A DNA stretch of 64,000 nt from Bartonella sp. ML70XJBT.G (GTDB lineage Bacteria; Pseudomonadota; Alphaproteobacteria; Rhizobiales; Rhizobiaceae), in NCBI RefSeq assembly GCF_028618575.1, contig NZ_JAQITA010000007.1:1-64000 (forward strand). The letters run 5' to 3'. Every line of letters starts with the position of its first letter. The stretch's first letter is position 1. The notes below the pieces were generated by a model. It made no database searches. It was given only the letters and a program-made list of their open reading frames with translations, and was not told the DNA's origin. The translations under genes were made by a program, and so were the position numbers. Positions 40,815-45,183 of the stretch are shown in pieces.

Positions 40815-42128
40815 TTAAACTGCAATACCATAGAGATCATAGGAATCTGATTTTTCGATTTTGACAGTGACAAATTCACCGACACGGAGGGGGCGTCGTG
40901 ATGATATATGTACAACACCATCTATTTCTGGAGCATCATATTGGCTACGGCCTTTAGCAACTTTTCCTTGACTTTCATCAATGAGAATTTGAAGCCTTTT
41001 TCCGATTTTTTTCTTTAAAAGACGGGTGGAAATTTGTTGTTGTTTTGCCATAAAGCGATGCCAGCGGTTTTCTTTCACTTCTTCAGAAATACTTTCTAAT
41101 CCCAAATCATTTGCAACAGCGCCTTTTACTTCTTCATATTTAAAGCATCCAGCACGTTCAATTTTTACTTCTTCCAGCCATTCGAGGAGTATATTAAAAT
41201 CTTCATTTGTTTCGCCTGGAAAACCAACAATAAATGTTGATCGTAAGGTGAGATCTGGACAAATTTTTCTCCAGTTTTCAATTCTACGATTTGTTTTTTC
41301 CATAACAGCAGGGCGTTTCATATTACGTAAAACAGTTGGTGATGCATGTTGAAAAGGAATATCTAAATAGGGAAGAATTTTTTTTGCAGCCATGAGCTCA
41401 ATAATTTCATCCACATGAGGATAAGGATAGACATAATGCATGCGTATCCAAATTCCCATATCACCCAATTCGCGACAAAGATCAAAAAATTTGGTTTTTA
41501 CGGTGCGGTCTTTCCAAGGACTTTCGAGATATTTAAGATCAATACCATAAGCACTGGTATCTTGTGAGATAACCAAAAGCTCTTTTACACCTGCCTGTAC
41601 AAGTTTTTCGGCTTCACGAAGAACTTCATTGATAGGGCGTGAAATAAGATTACCGCGCAGAGTAGGGATGATACAAAAACTACATCGATTAGAACATCCT
41701 TCAGAAATTTTTAAGTAGGCATAGTGGCGAGGTGTTAAGCGAATACCTTGCGGGGGGACTAAATCAATAAAGGGATCATGAACAGGAGGAATTGCTGTAT
41801 GAACAGCTTCTATAACACTTTCATAGGCTTGTGGCCCTGTAATGGCCAATACGTGAGGATGTGCTTGACGAATAACATCAGGATCAGCACCAAGACACCC
41901 CGTTACAATAACTTTTCCATTTTCTTTGAGAGCTTCATCAATATTGGCTAATGATTCATTTCGAGCCGAATCAAGAAACCCACAGGTATTTACGATAACG
42001 ACATCAGCTCCTTGATGTTTGCGTGAAATTTCATAACCTTCAGACCGGAGTCTGGTAATAATTCGCTCAGAATCTACCAGTGCTTTTGGACATCCGAGGG
42101 AAACAAAACTAATACGAGGTACTGCCAT
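40815..42128 (-). CDS. rimO: ribosomal protein S12 methylthiotransferase RimO
   Basis: This 437-residue radical-SAM enzyme adds a methylthio group to an Asp of ribosomal protein S12. The N-terminal UPF0004 domain has the three Fe-S cysteines in [22 protein letters not shown] and TGCLGADP. The radical-SAM CxxxCxxC is [13 protein letters not shown], and a C-terminal TRAM domain follows. The RimO-type SLGCPKA start distinguishes it from MiaB. It ends convergently with ttcA, 38 nt apart. Confidence 0.96.
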
Positions 42129-42368: not shown

Positions 42369-43082
42369 TTAATATTTGCGAATAAGTCCGATAAGTTTAC
42401 CTTGTATCTGCACACGCTCAGATCCATATATGTGTGTTTCGTAGTGAGGATTTGCCGATTCTAACGCAATAAAGGCTCCTTTACGTCTATAACGTTTTAA
42501 AGTTGCTTCTTCTTTATCGATGAATGCGACAATAATTTCACCTGATGTTGCTGTACTTTGGCATTTAACAATTATAGTGTCTTTATCAAGAATACCAGCC
42601 TCAATCATAGAATCATCTCTGACTTCTAAAGCATAGTGCTCACCCGAGCTAATCATATCTTGTGGTAAAGAAAGGGTATCTATTTGTTGTAATAAAGCGG
42701 AGACAGGTATACTTGCAGAAATGCGGCCCATAATGGGTATAGTGACGTTCTTTTTTTCTTCTGTCTCAAAATTTTCAACATCAGTAAAGTTTTGTGATAT
42801 TTTTCTTTTATTTTTCTCTATAATACTGGGAGAAATTTTACGCGCTAGAGAAAGATTAAATGTTATTTTATCGGGAAGTCGTATCACCTCAACGGCGCGG
42901 GCTCGATTTGGCAAACGACGTATAAAACCTCGTTGTTCTAAAGCTATCATAAGCTTATGAATGCCAGACTTTGAAGAAAGCTCCAACGCAATTTTCATTT
43001 CATCAAAGGAGGGAGGAATGCCAGTTTCTTTCATATGATTATGAATGAACAACAGTAGTTCATATTGTTTACATGTTAGCAT
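42369..43082 (-). CDS. lexA: LexA SOS repressor with altered cleavage site
   Basis: This 237-residue repressor has a winged-helix N-terminal domain ([20 protein letters not shown], 21-40, and [17 protein letters not shown]) and a C-terminal S24 self-cleavage domain. The catalytic Ser158 (DDSMIEAG) and Lys196 (ATLKRYRR) are present. The scissile bond, Ala-Gly in almost all LexA proteins, reads Ala123-Ser124 here ([13 protein letters not shown]); the codon is AGT at 42711-42713. No GTTC-N7-GTTC box occurs in the roughly 350 bp upstream. Length is normal for Rhizobiales LexA. Confidence 0.94.
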
Positions 43083-43819
43083 TCAATATTCCAATCATAA
43101 GAATACAAATGAGAGAAAGTAAATATAAAATATATTTTTTATAACTATTATACATTTTTAGATAAAATTAAAATATTATGTTTTAATTTACTTTAAAAAT
43201 AATTTCATTAAATTTAATATATTATCTCTAATATAATATAGAATATTATATTTACTACTATTTACTGAATAAAAAATGTTTTAAATATGTTTTACTATTT
43301 TAAATGAAAAATATCCGCGTAAAATAAATTCTGTAATTAATTTAAGGAAAAAAGTTATCTCTCTTTCAAAAATACTTTTAGGTATATTGTAATTTCTATC
43401 ATACAGAATTCAAATAAATAGTATTCTGCTCAATTTAACAGAGATGGTCATTTATCACCATTATTTCAAGATGATTTCCTTCTCAGGAAGAGGGTATAAA
43501 CCTCCCTTACGATGAAAGTATTTTTTCTTTTGCTCTATCCATCAATTCTACAAGGAATCATAGCTTTGTCTGTTTGTTATTTTTTTGATTCTTTATTCAC
43601 TCCAGTTGACTGTTTTTGTACATTTACCGTTCTTTTTATTATTTTGAAATATGCCCTTTTTCGTATTGTAAAAGTTATGATGCATTTTATCTTGATCATT
43701 TTTTCTTTTATTCAAATTTAAAACAGGGGAAAAATTGTATTCGCAGTGATGAGAAAAGGAGAAAAAACAGAAAAGTATTGATAACTAAACCGAATAATAA
43801 TATTTTTTTTCGAAAGGTG
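43083..43819. other. A+T-rich intergenic region upstream of lexA
   Basis: About 740 bp, very A+T-rich. I see no GTTC-N7-GTTC SOS box near lexA and no credible gene. An open frame at 43512-43721 is hydrophobic and Phe-rich, has no ribosome-binding site and no recognisable family, and is probably chance. Confidence 0.4.
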
Positions 43820-43848
43820 TTGACCAAATGAAAAGTCAACCGTATGTT
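43820..43848 (+). promoter_or_regulatory. tRNA-Lys promoter
   Basis: TTGACC (43820-43825), 17-nt spacer, TATGTT (43843-43848), placing the transcript start about 30 nt before the tRNA. A 6-bp inverted repeat GTTGAC...GTCAAC (43819-43840) overlaps the -35 element. Confidence 0.6.
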
Positions 43849-43883
43849 TCTCTCACTTTCGACACGCGAAATGGCTTGTGTGG

Positions 43884-43959
43884 GAGCGCGTAGCTCAGCT
43901 GGTAGAGCAACTGACTTTTAATCAGTAGGTCCAGGGTTCGAATCCCTGCGCGCTCACCA
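43884..43959 (+). tRNA. tRNA-Lys (anticodon TTT)
   Basis: This is a complete cloverleaf: acceptor GAGCGCG/CGCGCTC, D arm GCTC...GAGC, anticodon stem ACTGA/TCAGT with loop CTTTTAA (anticodon TTT), T arm with GGTTCGAATCC, and encoded CCA. Length is 76 nt with CCA. Confidence 0.96.
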
Positions 43960-45183
43960 AATTATAGCTTATATAAAAGTTCGAAAACTTTGCTTCCTTT
44001 TTCTTATAGTCTGAAGTTTTTTTTATTTATTGTTCATTATTTTCTACCCGTTGTATGGGTATAGAAAGATCCTCTGCTGCTCTTCTATCCAGACGCATCG
44101 CATTGATTTATGAAGATAGTTCATTGTTTTCCATGCTAAATGAGAGAGTTTTATACCATTCTGTTATTCCAAAACTGTTGATATTCAATGAAACAAAATC
44201 ATTTGCTTGCAGGTTAAAAGCGGGATCAGCATGTGGATAAAGCTATTAAGAAAAGACGTCAATGTCTCTTATGAAGAGTTTCAGGTGCCAAAGGCTGTAG
44301 CAATAGCAGAGGCCAACAAATATAATGATTGCTGCGTTCAAACAAAAAATGCTTTCAGTTTGTGATGCGGTAGCTCCGGCATTGGCTGTACATATTTATG
44401 TTTATTTTCTCAAACCGTGTGCTGATTTTTCTTATTCCAACTATACTATACGCTTTATAAAACAGAGTACAAAACTTTCTTTAACAAGCTTATGTCTTGC
44501 TTTTCCGCAAATGAATATTTTCACCTATGAGAGTCATTTATAAGGGTTCTGCTCATTCCGGTAAAATAGGCAAAAAAATATTTGCTTTAAATTGGCTCTT
44601 TTCTGTCTTGGGATGAATGATATTCTCTTTGATTTTTTCCCGCCGATACGAACGCTGTCACGACAGAGCAAGCCTATGTAAAAAAGAATATCAATCTATA
44701 CACACTCATGGGAACCATGTGACCAATATTGATTACATTTTCAATACCTTCTTCTGTCCATGGTAGAAAATCTTCTGGATTAAAGAATTTTAGTGGTTAT
44801 ATGTTAGAAGTCGAATTTTTGTCTAATAAAGCATTATCAACCGCTAAATTACAATGCCCCTTTAAACGTATAAGAATCATTCTACTTCTTCATCAATTAT
44901 ATGGTGGTATCATATTTTTGATGAACATATTGATTTCTTTATTTTTTATATCCATTATTTCTATTTTGATGACATTGCATTTCTTTTTTGCAAATCATAA
45001 AAACATTAATAATCTATTAATGTTTTTATGAAATGTATTAATTTCTTGATAAATGGTAAATTTTTAGGATATGGTAAACGCGCGAGGGGAATCATCTGAA
45101 AATGTGAATTTCCCTATCGCATAGAGAAAGTGCGGTGTGATTTTTTGCAGTAAATACTCAATTAGAAATAAGCGGGCTGACAA
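43960..45183. other. 1.2-kb gene-free region after tRNA-Lys
   Basis: No intact gene was recognised. Short open frames on the plus strand (for example 44055-44240, 44231-44365, 44325-44543, 44729-45031) have protein-like stretches but no start signals and no family I can name, so this may be a decayed gene or island beside a tRNA. It ends in the perfect hairpin at 44996-45030, upstream of the rlpA-like gene. Confidence 0.4.
44996..45030. repeat. perfect 16-bp-stem hairpin
   Basis: CATAAAAACATTAATA (44996-45011) and TATTAATGTTTTTATG (45015-45030) form a perfect 16-bp stem with a 3-nt loop. The stem is A/T-rich, and no long U-run follows on either strand, so it is not a standard terminator. It lies about 150 bp upstream of the RlpA-like gene. 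Confidence 0.75.

Follow-up and report, generated by a model that had tools for sequence, protein, structure and literature searches.

LexA of the E. coli mutant lexA3, in which Gly85 is changed to Asp, cannot be cleaved, and in coliphage 186 LexA controls the antirepressor Tum. Self-cleaving SOS repressors have been defined by an Ala-Gly (or Cys-Gly) scissile bond (PMC8565304, available part of the text). The LexA proteins of Synechocystis sp. PCC 6803 and Anabaena sp. PCC 7120 have an altered or inactive cleavage site, and reportedly neither gives SOS regulation of the E. coli type (PMC4759255). In Bartonella, the run-off-replication (ROR) cassette has been described as an exonuclease, a 390-bp gene, a 1059-bp initiator-like gene and a Twinkle-like helicase (PMC3610622, PMC2697382). 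Its link to the gene transfer agent is described as having arisen with the mammal-associated radiation, and disrupting the ROR origin or some ROR genes is described as abolishing transfer (PMC6899734). As far as the available parts of these papers go, regulation of ROR and the gene transfer agent was named as a future avenue in 2009 (PMC2697382), and control of the gene transfer agent by ppGpp was called elusive in a 2019 review (PMC6899734).

Here we analysed a LexA encoded in a 64,000-nucleotide stretch (the window) of Bartonella sp. ML70XJBT.G, genome G000 in our set. Its altered residue is the same P1' Gly that is changed in lexA3. However, lexA3 is a mutant in a full SOS regulon and its Asp is charged and larger than Ser, whereas the Ser of Bartonella is natural, clade-wide and found with a dismantled regulon. 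Like the LexA of Synechocystis and Anabaena, the Bartonella protein has an altered site and probably stands outside SOS regulation of the E. coli type. Unlike these Bartonella LexAs, of which 45 of the 46 from the later-branching clade keep both catalytic residues, the Synechocystis protein has also lost its catalytic Ser, and the available part of the source describes no gene-transfer-agent link for either Synechocystis or Anabaena (PMC4759255).

The ROR/brr cassette and the gene transfer agent of Bartonella are a known system, and we found a shared LexA box inside the phage-derived cassette, which amplifies DNA for the gene transfer agent. As in coliphage 186, this box stands before a small phage gene that is set against a phage repressor. 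In Bartonella, by contrast, the phage is a domesticated replication cassette, and the antirepressor activity of the small gene is putative. The candidate link between LexA and the ROR cassette is what we add here. None of the words LexA, SOS and repressor appears in the main text of the review PMC6899734, and SOS and repressor are also absent from the PLoS Genetics papers PMC2697382 and PMC3610622. Among the papers listed that join Bartonella with LexA, SOS, recA or mitomycin C, a set without most subscription papers, none treats Bartonella LexA by title and the first part of its abstract. At the same level, literature joining Bartonella, LexA and run-off replication dealt with the gene transfer agents of Rhodobacter and Caulobacter and with a Corynebacterium prophage.

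Judging from sequence comparison, we think it probable that the window encodes a genuine LexA no longer belonging to the SOS response, that its cleavage is impaired or slowed, and that it mainly represses the ROR cassette. What LexA now governs may be gene transfer rather than DNA repair.

The scissile bond in the window and across Bartonella

The window LexA matches the equivalog family TIGR00498 over residues 2-236 with 161.6 bits (cut-off 110.95). Alignment to PDB LexA chains identified an N-terminal DNA-binding domain and an S24 peptidase domain with its Ser-Lys dyad. A predicted structure had a mean pLDDT of 50 and was set aside. Features of the locus are given in Table 1; the name rimO is our assumption from the sequence of that gene, made without a family search. 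The roughly 1.6 kb upstream of lexA (43083-44728) contain no ORF of at least 80 codons.

Table 1. Features of the lexA locus, in window coordinates.
Feature	Position	Strand	Basis
lexA, LexA repressor, 237 aa	42369..43082	-	ORF list; TIGR00498 match; one match in genome
Codons 121-126 (I S A S I P), scissile bond Ala123-Ser124	42705..42722	-	Sequence; alignment with 59 other intact Bartonella LexAs
Ser124 codon AGT (P1'; plus-strand ACT)	42711..42713	-	Gly in 97/97 LexAs outside the genus
Asp156 codon, two residues before the nucleophile	42615..42617	-	Gly in 97 LexAs outside the genus; Asp in 40/46 later-clade Bartonella
Catalytic Ser158 codon, kept	42609..42611	-	Later-clade alignment
Catalytic Lys196 codon, kept	42495..42497	-	Later-clade alignment
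N-terminal DNA-binding domain, residues 1-68, most constrained part	42879..43082	-	dN/dS among 29 Ala-Ser LexAs
Site of the lexA promoter LexA box in relatives (TTGTAGAACattaataGAAC); here aatgtataatagttata, no exact box	43140..43157	-	Promoter scan and alignment
rimO (presumed), neighbour downstream of lexA, synteny anchor	40815..42128	-	ORF list; flank comparison

The scissile region reads GRISASIPV, so the bond, Ala123-Ser124, is neither Ala-Gly nor Cys-Gly. A sequence-only reading of this DNA had pointed to the Ala-Ser bond and to the retention of catalytic Ser158 and Lys196. It was right about the residue, encoded by AGT, and both catalytic residues are present. Its premise that Gly is expected at this place also stands, since all LexAs examined outside the genus have Ala-Gly. 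These comprise 47/47 from the same family (47 of 192 matched genomes, 27 of them from the first set of loci outside the genus and 20 added) and 50/50 from other alphaproteobacteria (50 of 160 matched genomes, the 30 best and 20 ranking lower among the full-length matches). The reading was incomplete in that the change is clade-wide, and it comes with a Gly156-to-Asp change and with lost LexA boxes and Y-family polymerases. Where Ala-Gly in close relatives would have spoken against the reading, the closest relative carries Ala-Ser. The LexA of Bartonella sp. ML69XJBT, a separate assembly, is 95% identical and has the same ISASIPV.

We also considered whether Ser124 could be a sequencing or assembly error, as this is a draft genome of 84 contigs with a contamination estimate of 9.29%. 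However, the same residue is found in 28 other genomes, seven of them assembled in one or two contigs. We rejected an error, the chance of which is negligible.

A tree built from recA and lexA DNA, with the site codons excluded, separates an early-branching clade of fourteen genomes from a later clade of fifty-seven. We take the later clade to be mammal-associated; its members include B. taylorii, vinsonii, phoceensis, tribocorum, koehlerae, doshiae, washoeensis and melophagi. All fourteen early-clade LexAs have Ala-Gly. Across the sixty intact Bartonella LexAs, the P1-P1' pair is Ala-Ser in 29, Ala-Gly in 23, Thr-Gly in 4, Ala-Ala in 2, and Ser-Gly and Ala-Asn in 1 each; 29/60 are thus Ala-Ser and another 8/60 have some other departure from Ala-Gly. 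Only small residues substitute at P1 and P1'. The P1' states require at least six changes on the recA and lexA tree and four on the lexA tree, counts that are rough because 17 of the 68 inner branches are weak. In the other LexAs examined this bond does not vary, and the naturally occurring Ser, Ala, Asn and Thr forms are a set with which the specificity of LexA self-cleavage could be probed.

Cleavage-domain changes, gene loss and selection on lexA

The scissile bond is not the only part of the cleavage domain to have changed. In 40 of the 46 intact later-clade LexAs, Asp replaces Gly156, which lies two positions ahead of the nucleophile (GDSM), and P2 is Ser or Gly in 21/46. Ser158, the residue type lost from the Synechocystis protein, is kept in 46/46, and Lys196 in 45/46, the exception being Arg. 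That exception, in genome G033 (L033), has an intact Ala-Gly bond and LRRY for LKRY. Among 106 positions that are invariant in the 47 outgroup and 14 early-clade LexAs, 49 vary among the 46 later-clade proteins and 57 are unchanged, so the retention of Ser158 and Lys196 says little. Position 124 changed six times on the tree, against a mean of 1.49 for the formerly invariant positions. It is not the fastest of these, as five of the 106 exceed six changes, and six changes are reached by 60 of the 237 LexA positions.

Glycine is favoured at the third place of type II turns. In LexA, a type II beta-turn has been described at the cleavage-site region (PMC10020695), and Ser at the Gly place should therefore make the cleavable shape harder to reach. 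Like the Gly156-to-Asp change beside the nucleophile and the single Lys196-to-Arg change, this tells against a LexA that is tuned and still cleavable. Under that explanation, a variant of our preferred one as regards cleavage, Ala-Ser, Ala-Ala and Thr-Gly bonds would be cut slowly, giving rare stochastic relief in a small number of cells, and DNA damage would act weakly through RecA on ROR. In its favour, the retained dyad and the small P1 and P1' substitutes look as if some cleavage were still wanted, and induction of the gene transfer agent is given as up to 15% in culture (PMC6899734). We regard such tuning as conceivable but somewhat doubtful. The sequence-only reading had allowed for a LexA that is cleaved slowly or not at all. 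For the Ala-Ser protein non-cleavability is putative, and slow cleavage is possible, given the presence of Ser158 and Lys196. By counting two residues back from Ser149, we take Gly147 of lambda CI to be the equivalent of Gly156. A Gly147-to-Asp CI is described as defective in cooperative interaction (PMC3708714).

Across the seventy-one Bartonella genomes, lexA is intact in 60, broken in 3 and without a match in 8. All of the broken and missing cases fall in the later clade (46 intact, 3 broken, 8 missing). The broken genes are those of G011, G039 and G031 (L061, L062, L063); G039 and G031 are draft assemblies, and their breaks could therefore be assembly errors. In G043 (L324), lexA has been cleanly deleted, with continuous flanks that are 85-92% identical to the intact sister locus in G015 (L041). 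Five genomes (G002, G007, G008, G047 and G048) have no close rimO orthologue, their best matches being 32-33% identical. Four of the five also have no lexA, which suggests loss of the whole locus, though G048 keeps lexA. G032 also carries, at G032:C2:12644-15000 (L064), what is left of another LexA-like gene, diverged and interrupted by stops; its site, VAASQP, is also Ala-Ser.

Selection on the intact genes was examined in the twenty-nine Ala-Ser LexAs, whose mean pairwise dS is 0.48 and overall dN/dS 0.147. By region, dN/dS is 0.062 for residues 1-68, 0.244 for the linker and 0.164 for residues 113-237; recA in the same genomes gives 0.026. LexA is not neutral, and it is DNA binding that selection guards most. 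For the C-terminal domain, dN/dS is 0.131 in nine later-clade Ala-Gly LexAs, 0.164 in the Ala-Ser LexAs and 0.214 in the eight others. No sharp release of selection therefore coincides with Ser, and the link between the cleavage site and relaxed selection is weak. The early-clade values rest on thirteen close pairs and were left out of this comparison.

These figures bear on simple decay, in which SOS is disappearing, lexA is no more than a relic, the cleavage site has changed neutrally, and the ROR box described below is kept for another reason (as a promoter, an operator for a phage-type repressor or a replication element). The eight missing and three broken genes fit this account, as do the losses of LexA boxes and Y-family polymerases reported in the next section. 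An intact frame is nevertheless kept in 46 of the 57 later-clade genomes, and the dN/dS values of the Ala-Ser genes, lowest in the DNA-binding domain, speak against a relic. We consider simple decay unlikely and continue to favour a LexA that has left SOS and acts on the ROR cassette.

Loss of the SOS regulon in the later clade

We take GTTC-N7-GTTC to be the alphaproteobacterial LexA box, an identity borne out by its occurrence before lexA, recA and uvrA in the early clade. The exact box precedes lexA in 14/14 early-clade genomes, in 1/46 later-clade genomes with an intact gene (G048; for two of the 46 the upstream sequence ran to only about 145 and 230 bp) and in 0/3 with a broken one. Eroded versions of the lexA-promoter box are present in other later-clade genomes. 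Before recA, it is found in 12/12 early-clade genomes whose upstream region was long enough (not G062, with 119 bp, or G057, with 55 bp) and in 0/56 later-clade genomes (G041 was left out). The corresponding figures for uvrA are 7/7 and 0/20, leaving out G047, in which there was no start motif. The Y-family polymerase domain PF00817 occurs in 4/4 early-clade genomes versus 0/17 later-clade genomes, and four of the eight early-clade Y-family polymerase loci also carry an exact LexA box. The recA gene itself is present in 71/71 genomes.

In the genome of the window, there is no exact box in the 350 bp before lexA or in the 420 bp before the conserved recA motif. The two boxes by which an SOS repressor is recognised, at its own gene and at recA, are thus both missing here. 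With neither an Ala-Gly bond nor SOS operators (canonical motif, three genes only), this LexA is in that respect of the Synechocystis type. The suggestion in the sequence-only reading that SOS control may differ in this organism agrees with these results: as far as sequence can tell, the SOS circuit does differ.

The recA box is lost in 56/56 later-clade genomes but Gly124 survives in 14/46 later-clade LexAs, so the decoupling of recA is probably older than the change to Ser. The Ser change probably followed the loss of the regulon. It is the missing regulon, rather than Ser124, that most clearly takes LexA out of SOS. LexA operators at recA, lexA and uvrA, together with the translesion polymerases, were presumably lost at or near the root of the later clade. 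The cleavage machinery would then have drifted, with Gly156 going to Asp and Ala-Gly to Ala-Ser, Ala-Ala, Ala-Asn, Thr-Gly or Ser-Gly, and several lineages have lost or broken lexA itself. On this order of events, the genus would offer, step by step, the natural dismantling of a global stress regulator: its regulon goes, its cleavage site goes and here and there the gene goes too, and one target stays.

At lexA, recA and uvrA, the promoter scan covered the canonical motif alone, and a conventional SOS response with shifted operators, in which repair genes carry a changed motif and the Ala-Ser bond is cleaved normally, would escape such a test. Three substitutions in or near the recognition helix (T46I, R43K and E50Q) could shift specificity. 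However, S37, K38, S39, I41 and L44 are unchanged in 46/46 later-clade LexAs, and the one shared operator that we found is canonical. Shifted operators are very unlikely, and we retain the view that LexA has left the SOS response.

Genome-wide, GTTC-N7-GTTC is rarer than its reversed control in the four later-clade genomes compared: G000 (35 versus 87), G067 (34 versus 66), G005 (29 versus 49) and G001 (21 versus 34). In early-clade G003 it is slightly commoner (103 versus 91). All 35 exact boxes of G000, two of which lie in the window, were examined in context, and three of them (L162, L166, L183) do not lie under an ORF of at least 110 codons. This screen is crude: the ROR site, overlain by an unsupported 135-codon ORF, was counted as coding and was recognised only through the recurrence of its 15-mer in G001 and G005. 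Other G000 boxes under short unsupported ORFs could be intergenic too. A 20-mer present in six genomes of the Ala-Ser clade was also tried as a shared operator; it lies under a long ORF in G017 and G068 and was dropped.

A shared LexA box in the ROR cassette

The operator search took in exact canonical boxes only, and counted them as shared only if the middle seven bases agree. GTTCTCTATTTGTTC is the only exact GTTC-N7-GTTC 15-mer common to G000 (35 boxes), G001 (21) and G005 (29). We searched the genus for it with one base left free, and this base was T in all 40 matches. The 15-mer occurs once each in 40/71 genomes, all of them in the later clade (40/57, against 0/14 in the early clade); a reversed-pattern control gave 4 matches in the 71 genomes. 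By the state of lexA, it is present in 37/46 genomes with an intact gene, 3/3 with a broken gene and 0/8 without one, a distribution that holds only two independent pairs and is confounded by ancestry. The other 9/46 genomes with intact lexA have no exact match. Its invariance in the aligned loci follows by construction, since it was found by exact search, and 40/57 is the fair figure. For neighbouring 15-mers at the offsets compared, the commonest form is mostly shared by 2-12 of the 31 aligned loci, the best elsewhere reaching 21.

In this genome, the box lies at G000:C5:8191-8205 (L159), on contig C5 and outside the window. Thirty-one of the forty boxes were examined in context (thirty loci and G000), fourteen of them at 18-20 kb. 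Clusters of exonuclease, phage-type repressor and initiator/helicase genes surround the box in 14/14 of these longer loci. A 129-codon ORF was picked in 12/14, and genes that we presume to be murA-like stand further out in 13/14. Pfam names at the locus in G000 and G001 are YqaJ, DUF1376 and Toprim/AAA. By gene content, the GTTCTCTATTTGTTC locus is the published ROR cassette of Bartonella.

An open ORF of 46-49 codons lies downstream of the box in 31/31 loci (L159, L339-L368). The distance from the start of the box to its ATG is 50-54 bp in 28/31 and 102 bp in 3/31. In the half of this small ORF that is free of overlap, pN/pS is 0.33 (27/31 sequences), versus 0.59 and 1.39 in the other two frames. 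Its other half is convergent with, and overlaps, the 3' end of a 105-codon repressor-like gene. The product of the 105-codon gene matches phage repressors in PHROGs (phrog_3037, E 2e-5) and reaches 16.8 bits against Pfam HTH_3, below the cut-off of 23.

This arrangement suggests how LexA might act on the cassette. Bound to the ROR box, it would silence a promoter from which transcription crosses the small ORF and runs against the repressor-like gene. At low LexA levels, or without LexA, this transcript or the small protein would weaken the phage-type repressor, and the initiator and helicase genes would be released. If self-cleavage is slowed or lost, DNA damage would be a weak or absent trigger, and relief would come from rare slow cleavage or from a changed amount of LexA. 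With Ser at P1' and Asp156, relief driven by RecA should be weak, which fits the description of particle production as restricted to healthy, growing cells (PMC6899734).

The box is present in all three genomes with a broken lexA, and it may therefore serve another protein or act as a promoter; the simple decay considered above gains from the same observation. Against decay, the shared 15-mer has the GTTC-N7-GTTC form of the early-clade lexA, recA and uvrA boxes. Within the reading that we prefer, a LexA that left SOS for the ROR cassette, we put forward a narrower proposal tentatively, as plausible rather than probable. LexA, stripped of its regulon and with a weak or dead cleavage site, would serve almost solely to switch a domesticated phage replication origin through which host-adaptation genes are loaded into gene-transfer particles, and would work through the small gene convergent with the phage-type repressor. 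For the control of ROR, the shared candidate operator thus points to LexA as a candidate regulator, to a defined site of 15 bases and to a small ORF that awaits characterisation.

The small ORF had no match over threshold in Pfam and a faint one in PHROGs, to a family of unknown function (phrog_18181, E 0.004). Residues 3-30 of the small protein weakly resemble the C-terminus of the repressor in the one pair compared (hhalign probability 41%, E 2.7e-4).
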